Assembly: GCA_015490715.1 (NCBI GenBank)
Contig: WFXH01000041.1
Coordinates: forward strand, 1-33,736
Source: Saprospiraceae bacterium
Lineage (GTDB): Bacteria > Bacteroidota > Bacteroidia > Chitinophagales > Saprospiraceae
Direction: 5' to 3'
DNA: 33,736 nt
The translations under genes and the position numbers were made by a program. Every line of letters starts with the position of its first letter. Position 1 is the first letter of the stretch. This document shows positions 22,849 through 28,621 of the stretch, piece by piece. The notes beneath the pieces were generated by a model. The model was not told the DNA's origin and searched no databases. It worked only from the letters and a program-made list of their open reading frames with translations.

Positions 22849-23268
22849 TTATTCACGCTCCCTAAAATACGGTTCCATTAGTCGGTCAAACGCTTCGGGA
22901 ATACGCACCATACGCTGAGTTTGGACGTGGTAAAAGCACAATGTGACCGCCCCCCTGTTGATCACTTCCCCCGATTCGTTGACGATTTCATGCTCAAAGC
23001 GGATCAACTTCGTCGGGCGTTCTTTAACTACCGTGTGAATGGTCAGTAGTTCGTCGTAAAATGCAGGCTTTAGATAGCGAATCTCGAGCTTCAACACGGG
23101 CATGACGATGCCCAACTCGTTTTCCATGTACTTGTAGGGCATGCCCAATGCGCGTATCGCCTCAGTACGGCCTATTTCATAGAGCAGCGCATACTGTCCG
23201 TAGTAGAGGTATCCCATTTGATCCGTCTGACCATATCGGACGCGCTCCTGACATTGATGTCGATACAT
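22849..23268 (-). CDS. 4HBT-family acyl-CoA thioesterase (YbgC/FadM type)
   Basis: 139 residues, one hotdog domain. The active-site region is RVRYGQTDQMGYLYYGQYALLYEIGRTEAI, where the catalytic Asp of the YbgC type follows the YGQT motif. MPVLKLEIRYLKPAFYDELLTIHTVV and FEHEIVNESGEVINRGAVTLCFY are the central strands. It should hydrolyse acyl-CoA thioesters in the cytoplasm; chain-length preference is not evident. It is the first gene of a two-gene unit with the YihY gene and divergent from the FtsE-like gene, with 85 bases between the starts. No clear TAnnTTTG element is seen for this strand. Confidence 0.92.
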   Translation of the reverse strand: MYRHQCQERVRYGQTDQMGYLYYGQYALLYEIGRTEAIRALGMPYKYMENELGIVMPVLKLEIRYLKPAFYDELLTIHTVVKERPTKLIRFEHEIVNESGEVINRGAVTLCFYHVQTQRMVRIPEAFDRLMEPYFRERE

Positions 23269-23318: not shown

Positions 23319-23326
23319 TACCTTTG
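23319..23326 (+). promoter_or_regulatory. Candidate -7 element for the FtsE-like gene
   Basis: TACCTTTG is an exact TAnnTTTG match 28 bases before the ATG at 23354. It overlaps an upstream in-frame codon at 23324, so that longer start is unlikely to be used. No convincing -33 element is seen. Confidence 0.5.
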
Positions 23327-23353: not shown

Positions 23354-24037
23354 ATGATTCCAATCGTCGAGTATCGCAAAGTCGCCCTCTCCCTGCCCAA
23401 TGGTCAGATGTTGAAGGATATCGACTTTGCGTTGTACCGAGGCGAAATGTGTCTAATCATTGGCGAAAACGGCAGTGGGAAGTCTTCGTTGTTGCGGAGT
23501 TTGTACGTCGATTTGCCCATTACCGGTGGCAGGGCTCGGGTCTTTGAGGTCGACCTCCAAGGCATTTCCGCAAAAGAGGCGATAGCTCTACGCCGTCAGA
23601 TGGGGATCGTCTTCGAATATCCGGAGCTCTTCGAGGATAAGACGGTCTTTACCAATTGTGCCACGGTACTGCGTGCCTTCGGGTGGAAGGATCCCGTCCA
23701 GATCGAAGAGCGCGTCCGAAGTGTGCTGCGCGATTTCCAGCTGGTAGACAAGAGCCATTCACTGGCTGCGGAGCTATCGGCCGGAGAACAACGGCGCCTT
23801 GCCATTGCACGGGCGCTCGTTCATCGGCCCCAACTGCTCATCGCCGATACTCCTTTCGCCTATCTTGATCGATTCTGGAGGCACCGCATACTTCAATACC
23901 TTACTGAGTTGTGCCGTCGAGACAAGATGTCTGCAGTACTTTCTACGCGTGATGCCAATCTCGCCGATATCTTCGAAGGCAAGAAATACCTACTCAAAGC
24001 TGATTCTCTCTTGCCCTATGAGCAGGCAGAGGGATAG
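23354..24037 (+). CDS. ftsE: FtsE-like ABC ATPase with degenerate catalytic motifs
   Basis: 227 residues. It follows Bacteroidota FtsE closely in SLLRSLYVDLPITGG, LRRQMGIVF and VLRAFGWKDPVQIEERV. FtsE binds ATP at the inner membrane and, with FtsX, couples the division machinery to peptidoglycan hydrolysis. Walker A is intact (GENGSGKS, residues 37-44). The signature is LSAGEQ (141-146) rather than LSGGEQ. The Q-loop Gln is Glu-88, the Walker B catalytic Glu is Thr-166 (LLIADTP), and the switch His is Arg-199 (LSTRD). The frame is intact and the fold looks conserved, so a nucleotide-binding but poorly hydrolysing protein is inferred. No ftsX gene lies beside it. The 3' end overlaps the murB 3' end by 44 bases. 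Confidence 0.82.
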   Translation: MIPIVEYRKVALSLPNGQMLKDIDFALYRGEMCLIIGENGSGKSSLLRSLYVDLPITGGRARVFEVDLQGISAKEAIALRRQMGIVFEYPELFEDKTVFTNCATVLRAFGWKDPVQIEERVRSVLRDFQLVDKSHSLAAELSAGEQRRLAIARALVHRPQLLIADTPFAYLDRFWRHRILQYLTELCRRDKMSAVLSTRDANLADIFEGKKYLLKADSLLPYEQAEG

Positions 24038-25067
24038 CGTATTCCCGATAGAGATTGTCGAGATAATGTCGCGGCCAGATTTGCACTTCGGGCTCGAGTA
24101 CGATGCCAAATCGCTCGTACACATCGCGCAGGATTCTGCCGGCCAGATGGTATATATCCCGGCCCTTAGAAGTGCCGTAATTGACGAGAATGAGAGCTTG
24201 GCGTGCAAAGGTCCCCACATCATTGAAGCGCTTGCCCTTCCATCCGCATTTTTCGATGAGCCAACCGCTCGGAATTTTGTATCTGCCATCTTGCTCAAAG
24301 GCAGGTAGCTCGCCGTATTGGCTCTTGAGTTTATGATAGTACTCTTCGGTGACGAAGACGTTTTTAAAAAAGCTCCCGGCGTTAGGCAACACCTCCGGGT
24401 CGGGCAATCGCTGTCGACGTATGTCCACCACAGCGCGAAAGATGGTCTGCACATCAGGCGTAGAGATATCGTGCTGCTCAAGCCACTTTTGCAACGACCA
24501 ATAGCTAACACGCAAGTCGTGGTGATGGCGTGTGAGGCGCAAGGTAATCCCACATACGATAAACTTCTCCTGTAGCTCTTGTTTGAAGATGCTGGTTCGA
24601 TAGCCAAAGCGACATTGATGGCCATCGAGCTGGAGCCACTCCCAACGACTGCCGTTAAAGTACAATCCTCGAACATGTAACAGCACTTCTGCTATTTCCC
24701 TGCCATAGGCACCGATATTTTGGATGGGCGCAGCGCCTGCTGTGCCGGGAATCAGGGCCAGGTTTTCTACCCCACCCCACCCTTGCTCTACCGCCCACTG
24801 CACAAAGCCGTGCCAGGATTCGCCAGCGCCTATTTCGACATCCACAGTGTTGTCGTGCTCCTTGACCACGCCGATGCCCTTGATTCGGTTGATCAAAACG
24901 GGTCGATCGAGGTCGTCGACGAGAAGTATATTACTGCCCTCGCCGAGGACATAGGGCGGAGTATCGAGCTGGTGAAGTACTGAAGTGAACTCTCCAACAC
25001 TATGTATCACACGGACACTTGGAGCTTCTGCCCGTACCCGAAAGGTATTATAGCGCTGTAAGTCCAT
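23994..25067 (-). CDS. murB: UDP-N-acetylenolpyruvoylglucosamine reductase (MurB, type I)
   Basis: 357 residues, the length of E. coli-type (type I) MurB. It reduces UDP-GlcNAc-enolpyruvate to UDP-MurNAc with NADPH and FAD in the cytoplasm, the second committed step of peptidoglycan synthesis. The FAD-binding part shows YVLGEGSNILL and IPGTAGAAPIQNIGAYG. The substrate domain has FGYRTSIFK, PNAGSFFKN with the proton-donor Ser, GWLIEKCGWKG, and the C-terminal LEPEVQIW with the catalytic Glu. ATG 25067 (MDLQRYNTF) is preferred; the longer frame starts with TTG at 25070. It lies 16 bases after the upstream gene's stop and is probably co-transcribed with it. Confidence 0.95.
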   Translation of the reverse strand: MDLQRYNTFRVRAEAPSVRVIHSVGEFTSVLHQLDTPPYVLGEGSNILLVDDLDRPVLINRIKGIGVVKEHDNTVDVEIGAGESWHGFVQWAVEQGWGGVENLALIPGTAGAAPIQNIGAYGREIAEVLLHVRGLYFNGSRWEWLQLDGHQCRFGYRTSIFKQELQEKFIVCGITLRLTRHHHDLRVSYWSLQKWLEQHDISTPDVQTIFRAVVDIRRQRLPDPEVLPNAGSFFKNVFVTEEYYHKLKSQYGELPAFEQDGRYKIPSGWLIEKCGWKGKRFNDVGTFARQALILVNYGTSKGRDIYHLAGRILRDVYERFGIVLEPEVQIWPRHYLDNLYREYAIPLPAHRARENQL

Positions 25068-25083
25068 CAACGCAGGTATTTCA

Positions 25084-25665
25084 TTAGCGGTATGGGGAGG
25101 TATCCTGGGGAATATGGGTGGTATCGAGCGTCATGGGGTGATGAGTATTTTTCAGCCGCTTCTGAAGGAGCACTTTTCTACGGGCTCGTATACGCTTTGC
25201 TATGTTTTCCCATTGGATGGGCTGGTGTTGAACCTTGCGGTACATGGCTGTCAGGAGGAAATCGGCGATATCGATCGGAAAACTCACGCCATAGTGCTCT
25301 TTGATATGATGACTGAGACGTGATCCCTCTTCCAATCCCCAACGCACGATCATCCAACGGCCGACACTGCCGATGAGCCCCTGTACAACGCGTTGCTCCG
25401 GAAGGCGGCGTATGCGTTCGATATTTCGCTCACCCAATACTGCGATCAAGCTGTCGACCGCCTCTTCCTCGGTTGCGGGTATATAGCGCCCGTCGAGATA
25501 CACCTGCTGTATGCGATACTGGTAGATGCTATCCATCCGCTGTTGATACTCGCGATAAGGTCCCGATGGTTTGATGATCCGCTTTTGTCCGTAGAGCTCT
25601 ACGGCTCCCGACATCCACACTACCGCAACGCATACTAACCCTCCTACTATTTTATACAGCACCAT
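25084..25665 (-). CDS. Secreted DUF6794-like protein
   Basis: 193 residues. A signal peptide or N-terminal anchor (VLYKIVGGLVCVAVVWMSGAVELYGQ) precedes a charged segment. A domain resembling DUF6794 follows: TEEEAVDSLIAVLGERNIERIRRLPEQ, then WMIVRWGLEEGSRLSHHIKEHYG and IADFLLTAMYRKVQHQPI. The function of that domain is unknown. The C-terminus is basic then Thr/His rich. The frame remains open upstream to 25776, but a terminator lies there, so ATG 25665 is used. It is followed by murB after 16 bases. Confidence 0.72.
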   Translation of the reverse strand: MVLYKIVGGLVCVAVVWMSGAVELYGQKRIIKPSGPYREYQQRMDSIYQYRIQQVYLDGRYIPATEEEAVDSLIAVLGERNIERIRRLPEQRVVQGLIGSVGRWMIVRWGLEEGSRLSHHIKEHYGVSFPIDIADFLLTAMYRKVQHQPIQWENIAKRIRARRKVLLQKRLKNTHHPMTLDTTHIPQDTSPYR

Positions 25666-25711
25666 GTGTGCGTTTTTTAGCCTAACGATGTCAGCCTCTT
25701 GGCTTGTATCC

Positions 25712-25759
25712 CAATAAAATAAAAAGCCGTGGAGAGCCATACATTTGCCCTCCACGGCT
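25712..25759 (-). terminator. Terminator after the T9SS-sorted protein gene
   Basis: On the minus strand AGCCGTGGAG pairs with CTCCACGGCT (10 bp, extendable by two pairs and a wobble) around a loop of about nine bases, followed by TTTTTATTTTATT. It begins 24 bases after the stop of the upstream gene (25783). Confidence 0.88.
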
Positions 25760-25782
25760 CTGTCGATGCCTCGCACTCCGTA

Positions 25783-27198
25783 TCACTGTTTTACCAAGCG
25801 CAGCGGATAACTCTTATTGTCGCGATAGATAATGACGTTGTACATGCCGGGCGCTAAGCCCAACACATCGATGGAAGTACCCAATCGGTAGGAGGGATTC
25901 GAATAGTAAATATTGCCGTGAGCATCGACGATGTCGACACGCACCGGCATTTCATGTGCATTTGAGGGGTGTATTTGTATGAAATCGTGGGCCAGATTAG
26001 GTGTGAGGAAATAGGAATTGTCGGTCGCAACTGGCTCGTCTACAGCCGTTACAAATTCCATATCTATAGCATCTACCTTTAGCACATTGTTGGTATCCAG
26101 ATTGGTAAGCGAGTTGGATGCTGCAAAGGAAATGAGAATCGAATCGACAGAGGGCAGGCTTGTCTGTGTGAGGTCAATCTGGAGTTGCTTCCAAGCCGAA
26201 TCGGTCAGATGTAGAGGTACAGCTATGGTATCTTTTTGCGCTTCGGGGGTGGCAGGCGCATTGGAATGCAGCACGACCACACAAAGACCGTAATTGGTCG
26301 TATCGGCGGAAGTATACTTGTACATAAATTTCAACTTGGAAGGCCTATTGGAAACGGGGTAAAAACCCTCATCAATATCCGTTCCTCGCGTGCGTAGACC
26401 AAAACCCACACCTCCAGAAAAGAAGTTGAACTGTGTCCGAATACGTGCGGAAAGCTGCCCCGAAACGGCATCGGTATCGGGTACGACATGTGGAGGATCA
26501 CCTACCCATTGAGTGAAGACATTTTGGGAAAACCAGCCCACCGGATCAACCGTTACCACCTCTTCCCAGACTTCAAAACTGTTGTTTTCGACTTGTTCGG
26601 CTACATTGAAGCCCAGCGAATCGATCTCAACCACATTGCCCTCCTTGAAGGGATCACTGGTGAAATAGCCAAACATGCGCACGTAACCGGGATTGGTGTT
26701 GGGATAATACCGGATGGGTAACTTGATCACAACCCATCCGTTGGATTGACCAATTATTTGTCCAAAAGTTCCGCCAATGAGTTGATTCGGATTATTGATG
26801 TCGTAAAATGCACATCCGATGTTGAAAGTATCGCCATCGACGATTTTAAACTGAGCCACGACCGTCAGTGTATCGGGCTTGGAAGTATATGGATAATAGC
26901 CAAGCGTATGGATATAATTGTAATTGGTAAAGCCACCTTCTACCGCTCCTATAAAGGGCACGTTGACGGTGCGCAACCGAATCGCGGTATCGGCCGGTGT
27001 GGGACCTGGTGCCATTTCCACCGGCAAATCCGGTGCCGAGATAGCTCCTACCCCTAATGCAGAAGTGTTCCACCCAACGGGTTCGGAATAGCGAACCAGC
27101 GTATCCCATTGCTCCATATCGCCATTGGGCAGCATCTGGGCAGTGACCACAACTACACTGCATACCAGGACCAATGAAGTGTGTAGCAGTTTTTTCAT
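25783..27198 (-). CDS. T9SS-sorted secreted protein with tandem beta-sandwich domains
   Basis: 471 residues. Signal peptide MKKLLHTSLVLVCSVVVVTA. Two related halves follow, each opening with a similar start: NGDMEQWDT with PVGWNTS near residue 25, and NNSFEVWEEV with PVGWFSQ near residue 205. Each is a jelly-roll-like region (YYPYTSKPDTLTVVAQFKI versus FYPVSNRPSKLKFMYKYT). This duplicated layout suggests carbohydrate-binding-like modules, but no ligand can be named. The last ~80 residues (NSYFLTPNLAHDFIQI to YPLRLVKQ) form a T9SS type A sorting domain, so it should be surface-attached or released. It has its own promoter and terminator. Confidence 0.85.
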   Translation of the reverse strand: MKKLLHTSLVLVCSVVVVTAQMLPNGDMEQWDTLVRYSEPVGWNTSALGVGAISAPDLPVEMAPGPTPADTAIRLRTVNVPFIGAVEGGFTNYNYIHTLGYYPYTSKPDTLTVVAQFKIVDGDTFNIGCAFYDINNPNQLIGGTFGQIIGQSNGWVVIKLPIRYYPNTNPGYVRMFGYFTSDPFKEGNVVEIDSLGFNVAEQVENNSFEVWEEVVTVDPVGWFSQNVFTQWVGDPPHVVPDTDAVSGQLSARIRTQFNFFSGGVGFGLRTRGTDIDEGFYPVSNRPSKLKFMYKYTSADTTNYGLCVVVLHSNAPATPEAQKDTIAVPLHLTDSAWKQLQIDLTQTSLPSVDSILISFAASNSLTNLDTNNVLKVDAIDMEFVTAVDEPVATDNSYFLTPNLAHDFIQIHPSNAHEMPVRVDIVDAHGNIYYSNPSYRLGTSIDVLGLAPGMYNVIIYRDNKSYPLRLVKQ

Positions 27199-27349: not shown

Positions 27350-28621
27350 TCAGGTTTTGCGCTTTTTCTTGCGGGCTGCTGGGAAGAGCACGTTGTTGAG
27401 GATGAGGCGATAGCCCGGCGAGTTGGGGTGAAGGCTCAGATCGGTTTCGGGATCATTGACGTAGTGGCGGTAGTCTTCAGGGTCGTGTCCGCCGTAGAAT
27501 GTCCAAAATCCTTCGCCCAGCACACCGTGGATGTAGCGCGCCTCATCGAGCGCTTTGTTTTCGCCGAGGATCAAGACATTGGATTTGATATAACGCTTCT
27601 TGAAAGCCGTGGTTTGCCCCATAAAGCCCTTGACGAGTCTTGTGTGGTTTTGGGTCAGCATGGTGGGCACGGGATCCCACTTGGCGGAAAAATCAAAGAG
27701 GGTGAAATAATCGTTTTCGGGATTGATGCGTCGCTCGCGATTGTCGATGGTGCTGTACTCGTATTCGAGAGGGTTCATTACAAGGGTGAAATTTTCAAAG
27801 GCCAAGCAATTGGTGTAGTCGAGTTTTTCATTGGCCTGGGGATCCATGGGGTCACCGTCGTAGATTTCGGCGCAAATATCGACACCTTCGGCTGCAAGGG
27901 CAATATCGTAGGTATCGGTCGCCGAACACATGGCGAAGAGAAATCCACCGCCGATGATGTATTCACGCAATCTCTTGACCACGGCCAGCTTGAGTTGGCT
28001 GACTTTTTTAAAGCCCAGTTCGTGAGCCAGTTGTTCCATGCGCCGCTGGTTTTCTTGATACCAGCTGTACATGTGGTAGGCGTTGTAAAACTTACCGTAC
28101 TGACCTGTGAAGTCTTCGTGGTGTAAGTGGATCCAGTCGTATTGCACGATTTTATCCTCCAACACTTCGCGATCGTAGACGATGTCGTAGGGTATTTCGG
28201 CGTAGTTGAGGGCCAACATGACGGCATCATCCCAGGGCTGAATACGTTCGCCGCGCATGGTAAAGGGTGGCGCATAGACGGCTATGCGCGGAGCCTTTTC
28301 GAGCTTGATGGCCTCTTGATTGACTTCGGGGTGGGCGATTTCCTCGAGGATGCCCTGAAATCGCGCGTTGGAAATCACCTCGTATTTGACATTGCGCAGG
28401 ATGCATTCCTTTTCAAAGGCGCGATGGTGGGGAAAGGCAAACGACCCGCCGCGATAATTCAACAGCCACCACGCCTCCACCCCCTCCGACAACACCCAAT
28501 AAGTGATGCCGTAGGCCTTGAGGTGATTGGTCTGCGTTTCATCCATGGGAATCAATATATAGCTGGCGCGCCCCCATGGGACCAACCACAACAAACTCAT
28601 CCATACCAGGATCCATCGCAT
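27350..28621 (-). CDS. Conserved Bacteroidota secreted protein usually called 'asparagine synthetase B'
   Basis: 423 residues. A signal peptide (WILVWMSLLWLVPWGRAS) is followed by the strongly conserved start YILIPMDETQTNHLKAYGITYW. Further conserved segments are PWDDAVMLALNYAEIPYDIVYD, YDWIHLHHEDFTGQYGKF, GGGFLFAMCSATDTYDIALAAEG, NDYFTLFDFSAKWDPVPTM, GFWTFYGGHDPEDYRHYV and LHPNSPGYRLILNNVLFPAA. Homologues are annotated asparagine synthetase B, yet there is no N-terminal Cys-Gly-Ile glutaminase and no SGGxDS loop; both are present in the true AsnB at 11518-13476. GGGFLFAMCSAT resembles the nucleophile elbow of class I glutamine amidotransferase-like/ThuA-like folds. Extracytoplasmic location is implied. 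The true role is unknown. Confidence 0.85.
   Translation of the reverse strand: MRWILVWMSLLWLVPWGRASYILIPMDETQTNHLKAYGITYWVLSEGVEAWWLLNYRGGSFAFPHHRAFEKECILRNVKYEVISNARFQGILEEIAHPEVNQEAIKLEKAPRIAVYAPPFTMRGERIQPWDDAVMLALNYAEIPYDIVYDREVLEDKIVQYDWIHLHHEDFTGQYGKFYNAYHMYSWYQENQRRMEQLAHELGFKKVSQLKLAVVKRLREYIIGGGFLFAMCSATDTYDIALAAEGVDICAEIYDGDPMDPQANEKLDYTNCLAFENFTLVMNPLEYEYSTIDNRERRINPENDYFTLFDFSAKWDPVPTMLTQNHTRLVKGFMGQTTAFKKRYIKSNVLILGENKALDEARYIHGVLGEGFWTFYGGHDPEDYRHYVNDPETDLSLHPNSPGYRLILNNVLFPAARKKKRKT

Follow-up and report, generated by a model that had tools for sequence, protein, structure and literature searches.

The nucleotide requirement of the cell-division complex FtsEX is reported to differ between species. 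Passages of PMC11139282 attribute its activation to ATP binding in Pseudomonas aeruginosa and Escherichia coli, to ATP hydrolysis in Mycobacterium tuberculosis, and to no nucleotide in Vibrio cholerae. For E. coli, PMC7343993 describes an FtsA-mediated block of septal wall synthesis by the hydrolysis-dead FtsE(D162N)X, which nonetheless promotes cell separation once this block is avoided; the effect of hydrolysis on separation is described there as hard to disentangle from the block of septal synthesis. Another E. coli hydrolysis mutant, E163Q, was reported in a section of PMC12505981 to mimic the loss of ftsEX, which counts against the adaptor reading favored below. These two E. coli proteins and P. 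aeruginosa FtsE E163Q have the same expected state as the naturally degenerate FtsE described here, in that ATP may be bound without being hydrolysed (portions of PMC7343993 and PMC12505981). However, the engineered proteins carry single changes that are reported to be harmful in E. coli, whereas the present protein carries three or more changes and is natural and maintained. In ABC exporters, a degenerate site has a live partner site within the same transporter. Such degenerate sites (e.g., that of ABCB11) also lack the catalytic Glu, and their hydrolysis was described in a passage of PMC7544095 (cf. PMC7756269) as too low to sustain transport. Unlike in these exporters, the only FtsE found in the present genome is degenerate and no live site is expected. 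In the same pathway as FtsE, the degenerate LytM domains of EnvC and DipM represent an enzyme fold turned into a non-catalytic regulator, according to an excerpt of PMC11627006; these domains lie on the periplasmic side, whereas FtsE is a cytoplasmic ATPase.

The window, i.e., the whole stretch of 33,736 nucleotides that was analysed, is contig 41 of the Saprospiraceae genome G000 (2.45 Mb, 115 contigs, 98.58% complete). The ftsE-type gene on its forward strand (23354-24037) is an undisrupted ORF of 227 amino acids, and its frame and three altered codons agreed with the initial annotation, whose description of an FtsE-like ATPase with an intact Walker A motif, Glu88, Thr166, Arg199, and an LSAGEQ signature was confirmed position by position. 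The Walker A motif or P-loop (GENGSGKS, residues 37-44, 23462-23485, forward strand, as are all the following motifs) is intact. At the Q-loop position, Gln is replaced by Glu88 (codon GAA, 23615-23617). The ABC signature LSAGEQ (residues 141-146, 23774-23791) has Ala instead of Gly143; at the end of Walker B (23846-23851), Asp165 is retained and the catalytic Glu is replaced by Thr166 (codon ACT, 23849-23851). The D-loop reads AYLD (residues 169-172, 23858-23869) rather than the usual GNLD, with Gly169 changed to Ala and Asp172 retained, and His at the switch position is replaced by Arg199 (codon CGT, 23948-23950). Upstream of the gene, an TACCTTTG element (23319-23326, forward strand), which we take to be a possible Bacteroidota-type -7 box, lies 27 bases from the start codon and is conserved in the genus mate. 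The divergent neighbor on the reverse strand (22849-23268) is a thioesterase superfamily gene, presumably YbgC-like. The convergent neighbor is murB (23994-25070, reverse strand), which shares 44 bases with the 3' end of ftsE; the ftsE coding part of this overlap (23994-24037) showed no nucleotide differences between the two species of the genus. At 57 other FtsE loci, flanks of up to 1.5 kb contained no YihY-like, thioesterase, or MurB neighbor. The gene neighborhood therefore says little, and its use as a proof of orthology was dropped.

The family of the protein was assigned from profiles and fold. The best NCBIfam model was FtsE (TIGR02673, 152.8 bits), followed by LolD (115.7 bits). The score is below the equivalog cut-off of TIGR02673 (264.85 bits), as are the scores of trimmed stretches of five canonical FtsE of the same family (184-228 bits). 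The best six sequence matches in PDB were all FtsE chains. An AlphaFold2 model built from a six-row alignment (pLDDT 84.5, residues 1-18 poor) showed a single-domain type VII NBD fold; Foldseek and VIA placed FtsE structures at the top (Z 26.5 for 8hd0), with LolD and MetN tied to within 1 Z unit and MacB trailing by about 2. Identity as LolD, MacB, or MlaF was ruled out by the profile scores, and the protein is FtsE by descent. It resembles FtsE of FtsEX (TIGR02673; PDB 8i6r, 6z63, and 8hd0) in length, fold, Walker A, Walker B Asp, and the presence of FtsX in the genome, but differs at the Q-loop Gln, Walker B Glu, switch His, signature Gly, and D-loop Gly. Among the canonical features of ABC ATPases, Walker A Lys43 and Walker B Asp165 are present, whereas the Q-loop Gln, Walker B Glu, switch His, and the LSGGE signature (LSAGE instead) are absent. 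In Streptococcus pneumoniae FtsE, the corresponding residues are given as Lys43, Gln88, Glu165, and His197 in a portion of PMC7468199.

Subsequently, the genome was searched for a second FtsE and for the FtsX partner. A protein search of the genome gave 18 matches, with no second FtsE among them. When an FtsE profile was applied to these matches, the window protein scored 286 bits, followed by the proteins L002 and L003 (LolD) with 153 bits each. The NCBIfam matches of L002 were mixed (GlcV, PhnT2, ECF, and MlaF), with FtsE in ninth place, and look-alikes (274-352 bits) occur in at least eight other genomes of the family among the matches read, which together indicate a separate gene. A second FtsE was found neither in G000 (98.6% complete) nor in its genus mate G001 (95% complete). 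FtsX of G000 (L068, 1263-2135, on contig 57), encoded on a different contig from ftsE, is an intact protein of 291 amino acids with FtsX_ECD (PF18075, 37.9 bits) and FtsX (PF02687, 29.6 bits) domains, both above the Pfam cut-offs; downstream of the gene are a DUF3098 gene and then a BacA/UppP-family gene. With no second FtsE found and FtsX present, the window gene is taken as the sole FtsE of the genome. Of the two possibilities raised in the initial annotation, that of a paralogue with a changed role was thus not supported; a paralogue beside a canonical ftsE was rejected, no such ftsE having been found in G000 or G001.

The selection acting on the gene was examined by comparison with one other genome of the genus (G001, a metagenome-assembled genome; FtsE contig JALWKB010000015.1). 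The two FtsE proteins are 85% identical and share Glu, Thr, Arg, and LSAGEQ; none of the 34 amino-acid differences falls at the three catalytic sites, and the codons of Glu88 and Arg199 differ synonymously. An assembly or frame error was ruled out by the agreement of the two assemblies. The shared Thr/Glu/Arg was dropped as a proof of function, since a probability of about 0.6 is expected by chance at 85% identity (0.85 cubed) and the two species of genus g98, described below, differ from each other at these positions. The pair gave dN 0.076, dS 0.433, and dN/dS 0.176 (about 0.18), with 27, 9, and 55 differences at codon positions 1, 2, and 3, respectively. For the same genome pair, dN/dS was 0.18 for MurB, 0.18 for the gene at 25084-25776, 0.22 for that at 25783-27198, 0.09 for FtsX, 0.066 for the YihY-like protein, 0.034 for the YbgC-like protein, 0.012 for the gene at 27350-28621, and 0.007 for RpoB. 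Among 55 canonical FtsE pairs, dS was saturated in 35; the other 20 gave dN/dS of 0.019-0.155, all exceeded by the window pair, whose ratio is about 3 to 6 times higher than those of the three canonical pairs with dS below 1 (0.032-0.054). These results indicate an intact gene, as had been claimed, under purifying selection that is milder than usual for FtsE. The genus of G000 and G001 also has a very long RpoB branch (0.59; L220 and L222) and a small genome for the family (approximately 2.4 Mb).

Next, 199 genomes of the same family were searched with an FtsE alignment, with a follow-up on 30 low scorers; an alignment that included degenerate sequences was then applied to the 36 genomes in which FtsE had not been clear, reading the best match in all of them and further listed matches in eight. 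FtsE was found in 166 of the 199 genomes, one of which has two copies, and all 167 loci were read: 155 carry Gln, Glu, and His, three are cut by contig ends and are canonical where visible, and nine, from six genera, are degenerate. Two or three of these residues are lost in seven of the degenerate copies, the replacements at Gln/Glu/His reading E/T/R in G000 and G001, L/E/N in G091, H/A/V in G142, G/N/S in G098, P/A/A in G187, and D/D/H in G158. The copies of G091 and G142 also lack most of the signature, and the two g98 species, G098 and G187, carry unlike replacements. The remaining two copies, those of genus g73 (L393, G073:C1:184106-184762; L406, G167:C2:3782577-3783233), retain Glu and His but lack Gln, the D-loop Asp, and the entire signature; in their P-loops, which are eroded to GPLSNAKS and GPLSSAKS, the second Gly is lost. 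Thus, the switch His persists in G158 and g73, and the Walker B Glu in G091 and g73. For the other eight degenerate FtsE, the best-matching family was likewise FtsE, although the g73 copies score under LolD against the FtsE profile and surfaced only when more matches were read; G073 and G167 had been taken for genomes with FtsX alone, an assignment that was overturned. The statement that no FtsE loses just one of the three residues holds for 165 loci where readable, the exceptions being the two g73 copies, which lost Gln alone of the three. Separately, L291 (G121:C526:6820-7398) is an otherwise canonical FtsE with Ala for the Walker B Asp, which may be a sequence error.

If the three sites had changed independently at rates close to those observed, 0.009 triple losses would be expected among approximately 162 sequences; five were seen, not all of them independent. 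The degeneracy of the window protein is thus more than chance or assembly error, and it is unusual, though not unique to G000. The initial annotation had called it unusual, which stands but has to be qualified by the seven further degenerate FtsE of the family beyond the genus pair. As to whether Thr, Glu, and Arg are conserved together in relatives, a check proposed in the initial annotation, they are shared by the genus mate; the residues differ in the other degenerate copies, and most relatives are canonical. In the same order but beyond this family, all 12 FtsE examined were canonical. Across the phylum, residues were read in 30 of the lower-scoring genomes among 392 of Bacteroidota, in a survey that would miss an FtsE so degenerate as to score below LolD: the best matches carried Gln, Glu, and His in 30 of 30, at least 19 of them being FtsE by score and most others LolD- or MacB-like. 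In families f40, f48, f53, and others of the phylum, the best match to the FtsE profile was only at the level of LolD (about 1e-41 to 1e-46), and these families may lack FtsE or carry a highly divergent one. Among the matches listed from the open-licence PMC literature, there was no earlier report of such a degenerate FtsE.

Retention and loss were then compared over columns 19-207 of the alignment, of which 31 are at least 97% conserved among the 155 canonical loci (themselves selected by the presence of Gln, Glu, and His). All of the first seven degenerate copies keep G37, G42, K43, R80, R81, G84, N101, R153, P159, D165, L171, and D172, whereas Q88, G143, and G169 are kept in none of the seven, E166 and H199 in one, and F87, Q147, and T168 in two; the nine degenerate copies are not all independent, so that such counts overstate the evidence somewhat. 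Gly143 and Gly169 are near-invariant in canonical relatives, Gly143 being Gly in 155 of 155 canonical loci. Of the twelve columns kept by the first seven, the g73 pair retains G37, K43, R80, R81, R153, P159, D165, and L171 and has changed G42, G84, N101, and D172. Overall, the P-loop Lys43, the Walker B Asp, and both Arg80 and Arg81, which precede the Q-loop, are kept in nine of nine degenerate copies, and Gly42 in seven of nine. The Q-loop region of the window protein itself is rewritten (FEYPELFEDKT). The A-loop aromatic residue was considered as a fourth sign of degeneracy and dropped, as it varies in canonical FtsE (21 Tyr and 6 Phe among 50 readable non-degenerate rows). These patterns suggest that residues for hydrolysis and coupling go first and that the nucleotide site is not sacrosanct; ATP binding should not be assumed for every degenerate FtsE, because the P-loop, signature, and D-loop Asp of g73 are eroded. 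The two g73 FtsE, which are 97% identical, nevertheless gave dS 0.38, dN 0.018, and dN/dS 0.047, as low as canonical pairs (0.062 for their FtsX). This ratio argues that a degenerate FtsE can be functional, even one more altered than that of the window.

To place these copies on the phylogeny, an RpoB tree was built from 46 of 48 genomes sought, leaving out G085 (no match) and G020 (a fragment). The degenerate genomes were scattered on the tree, and a constraint to one clade was rejected with AU p values of 1e-47 for seven rows, in which G073 was coded as having FtsX alone, and 5e-7 for eight rows, in which it was coded as degenerate. Parsimony gave four changes between the canonical and degenerate states. 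G158 grouped with the canonical G058 of the same genus (SH-aLRT 98); a grouping of G158 with G098 and G187 was compatible with the RpoB data (AU p 0.31), so that two separate origins for G158 and for G098/G187 are not secured and three origins is the cautious count. G091, G142, and G073 fell in one clade (SH-aLRT 100) together with G022 and G072, both of which have FtsX but no FtsE that was found. The tree suggests that degenerate FtsE arose recurrently, although rejection of a single clade leaves regain or an old transfer formally possible. Relative to RpoB, the FtsE-to-outgroup distance was 3.6-5.4 for degenerate copies (n = 7) and 1.8-4.0 for canonical ones (n = 20), ranges that touch, and the corresponding FtsX distances overlapped widely between degenerate and canonical genomes.

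A dedicated alignment was used to search 64 genomes for FtsX, which was present in 9 of 9 genomes with degenerate FtsE and 22 of 22 with canonical FtsE. Among the matches listed, FtsE was not found in 33 of the 199 family genomes, where copies like those of g73 could hide below LolD; 12 of the 33 have FtsX (G072 weakly) and 21 do not, numbers that become 6 and 18 at a completeness of at least 90%. The six are G022, G060, G160, G126, G072 (weak FtsX), and G146. Genomes with FtsX alone are therefore likely in the family but unproven, as the g73 FtsE had hidden below LolD. The 18 genomes in which neither protein was found include G005, G007, G018, G040, and G048; two congeners of G007, namely G131 and G207, carry both proteins. 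The C-terminal acidic-Leu-Tyr tail of FtsX, defined by a loose pattern, was seen in 13 canonical genomes out of 20 (17 from the family and 3 from the order), in none of 8 degenerate genomes (G073 included), and in 1 of 5 in which FtsE was not found; the pattern was written after seeing the data, and Fisher's p of 0.0014 ignores relatedness. The sole match among the latter five, G060, looks like chance. The canonical genomes G042 and G058 lack the tail, and their genus mates have no FtsE that was found and a degenerate FtsE, respectively. In two species of genus g8 with canonical FtsE, the FtsX match contains one internal stop (L166 in G008, and G132:C62:53010-53864).

Taken together, these findings favor, with a probability of roughly 0.6, the reading that the window FtsE is a recurrently evolved pseudo-ATPase, a non-hydrolysing adaptor for FtsX, in a family in which the need for hydrolysis by FtsE has been relaxed. 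The protein would still bind FtsX and would probably hold ATP or ADP, and cycling by hydrolysis would be impossible for it. As a static adaptor, it would keep FtsX and the wall-hydrolase activator at the division site, and control would rest on nucleotide binding, assembly, or another pathway. The E. coli-type check, in which a hydrolysis-dead FtsE blocks septal synthesis via FtsA, would be absent or uncoupled in these lineages. As for the nucleotide-binding scaffold proposed in the initial annotation, the kept and lost residues are those expected of a nucleotide-binding, non-hydrolysing protein, which appears to be the likeliest reading.

The main rival is relaxed decay, according to which the role of FtsEX is fading in the Saprospiraceae and the degenerate FtsE represents an advanced stage of loss, in which the protein still folds but has little or no function left. 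The 33 genomes in which FtsE was not found among the matches listed (12 with FtsX, 21 without) point in this direction, as do the clade that joins G091, G142, and G073 with G022 and G072 (FtsX, no FtsE found), the greater divergence of degenerate FtsE relative to RpoB than that of most canonical copies, the unlike replacements in the two g98 species, and the dN/dS of the window pair above those of all 20 unsaturated canonical pairs. However, that ratio is still 0.18 with the frame undamaged in two assemblies, the even more degenerate g73 FtsE has a ratio of 0.047, and in the first seven degenerate copies the structural and nucleotide-site columns are kept while the catalytic ones are lost. Decay as the explanation of the window gene is accordingly regarded as unlikely, though it is to be taken seriously. 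The initial statement that the gene is not a decayed one is upheld in part by the g73 ratio and by a window ratio like that of MurB (0.18), and weakened by the excess over canonical FtsE and by the relatives without a findable FtsE. Decay and the adaptor reading are not exclusive, since an adaptor may be a stage toward loss. A broader scenario, which we hold tentatively and at somewhat less than even odds, is that FtsEX has repeatedly stopped running on ATP hydrolysis in the Saprospiraceae: FtsE would become a pseudo-ATPase as FtsX, its C-terminal tail lost, is freed from the septal synthesis machinery, after which, in some lineages, nucleotide binding (g73) or FtsE itself would be lost, and finally FtsX.

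It is also conceivable, but improbable, that the window FtsE hydrolyses ATP, perhaps slowly, via non-canonical residues, e.g., with the water placed by other side chains. The window protein retains its P-loop, both Asp residues (Walker B and D-loop), and a signature, LSAGEQ, that departs little from the norm, the switch His is kept in G158 and g73 and the Walker B Glu in G091 and g73, and a passage of PMC10211241 mentions that some proteins without catalytic motifs may have relocated residues. On the other hand, the window protein is altered at Gln, Glu, and His simultaneously, and the replacements are unrelated among the degenerate lineages, which argues that there is no shared new active site. 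Furthermore, FtsE is described as dimeric in a part of PMC11627006, so that both sites would be degenerate where no second FtsE was found. A departure of the protein from FtsX to take up a different function elsewhere, as scaffold or regulator, to which the separate contigs of ftsE and ftsX and the rewriting of a Q-loop region that faces FtsX in other FtsE (an excerpt of PMC7468199) might point, is still less probable than non-canonical hydrolysis, with FtsX in 9 of 9 genomes with degenerate FtsE, Arg80 and Arg81 kept in all nine, and uninformative neighbors, none of which was found near 57 other FtsE loci.

Under the adaptor reading, the finding bears on whether FtsEX needs hydrolysis, binding, or neither, which is unsettled, with species reported to differ (a section of PMC11139282). 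Lineages that have FtsX and a selected FtsE without hydrolysis residues, and that fall in more than one clade, offer natural experiments on the need for hydrolysis, and matched close relatives are available in one genus, with a canonical FtsE in G058 and a degenerate one in G158. The series from canonical FtsE through pseudo-ATPase and FtsX without detectable FtsE to neither protein suggests a possible route by which a division checkpoint could be taken apart. If the broader scenario of a repeated abandonment of hydrolysis is true, the degenerate lineages of the Saprospiraceae would represent viable counterparts, occurring in nature, of the hydrolysis-dead FtsEX by which division is blocked in E. 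coli.
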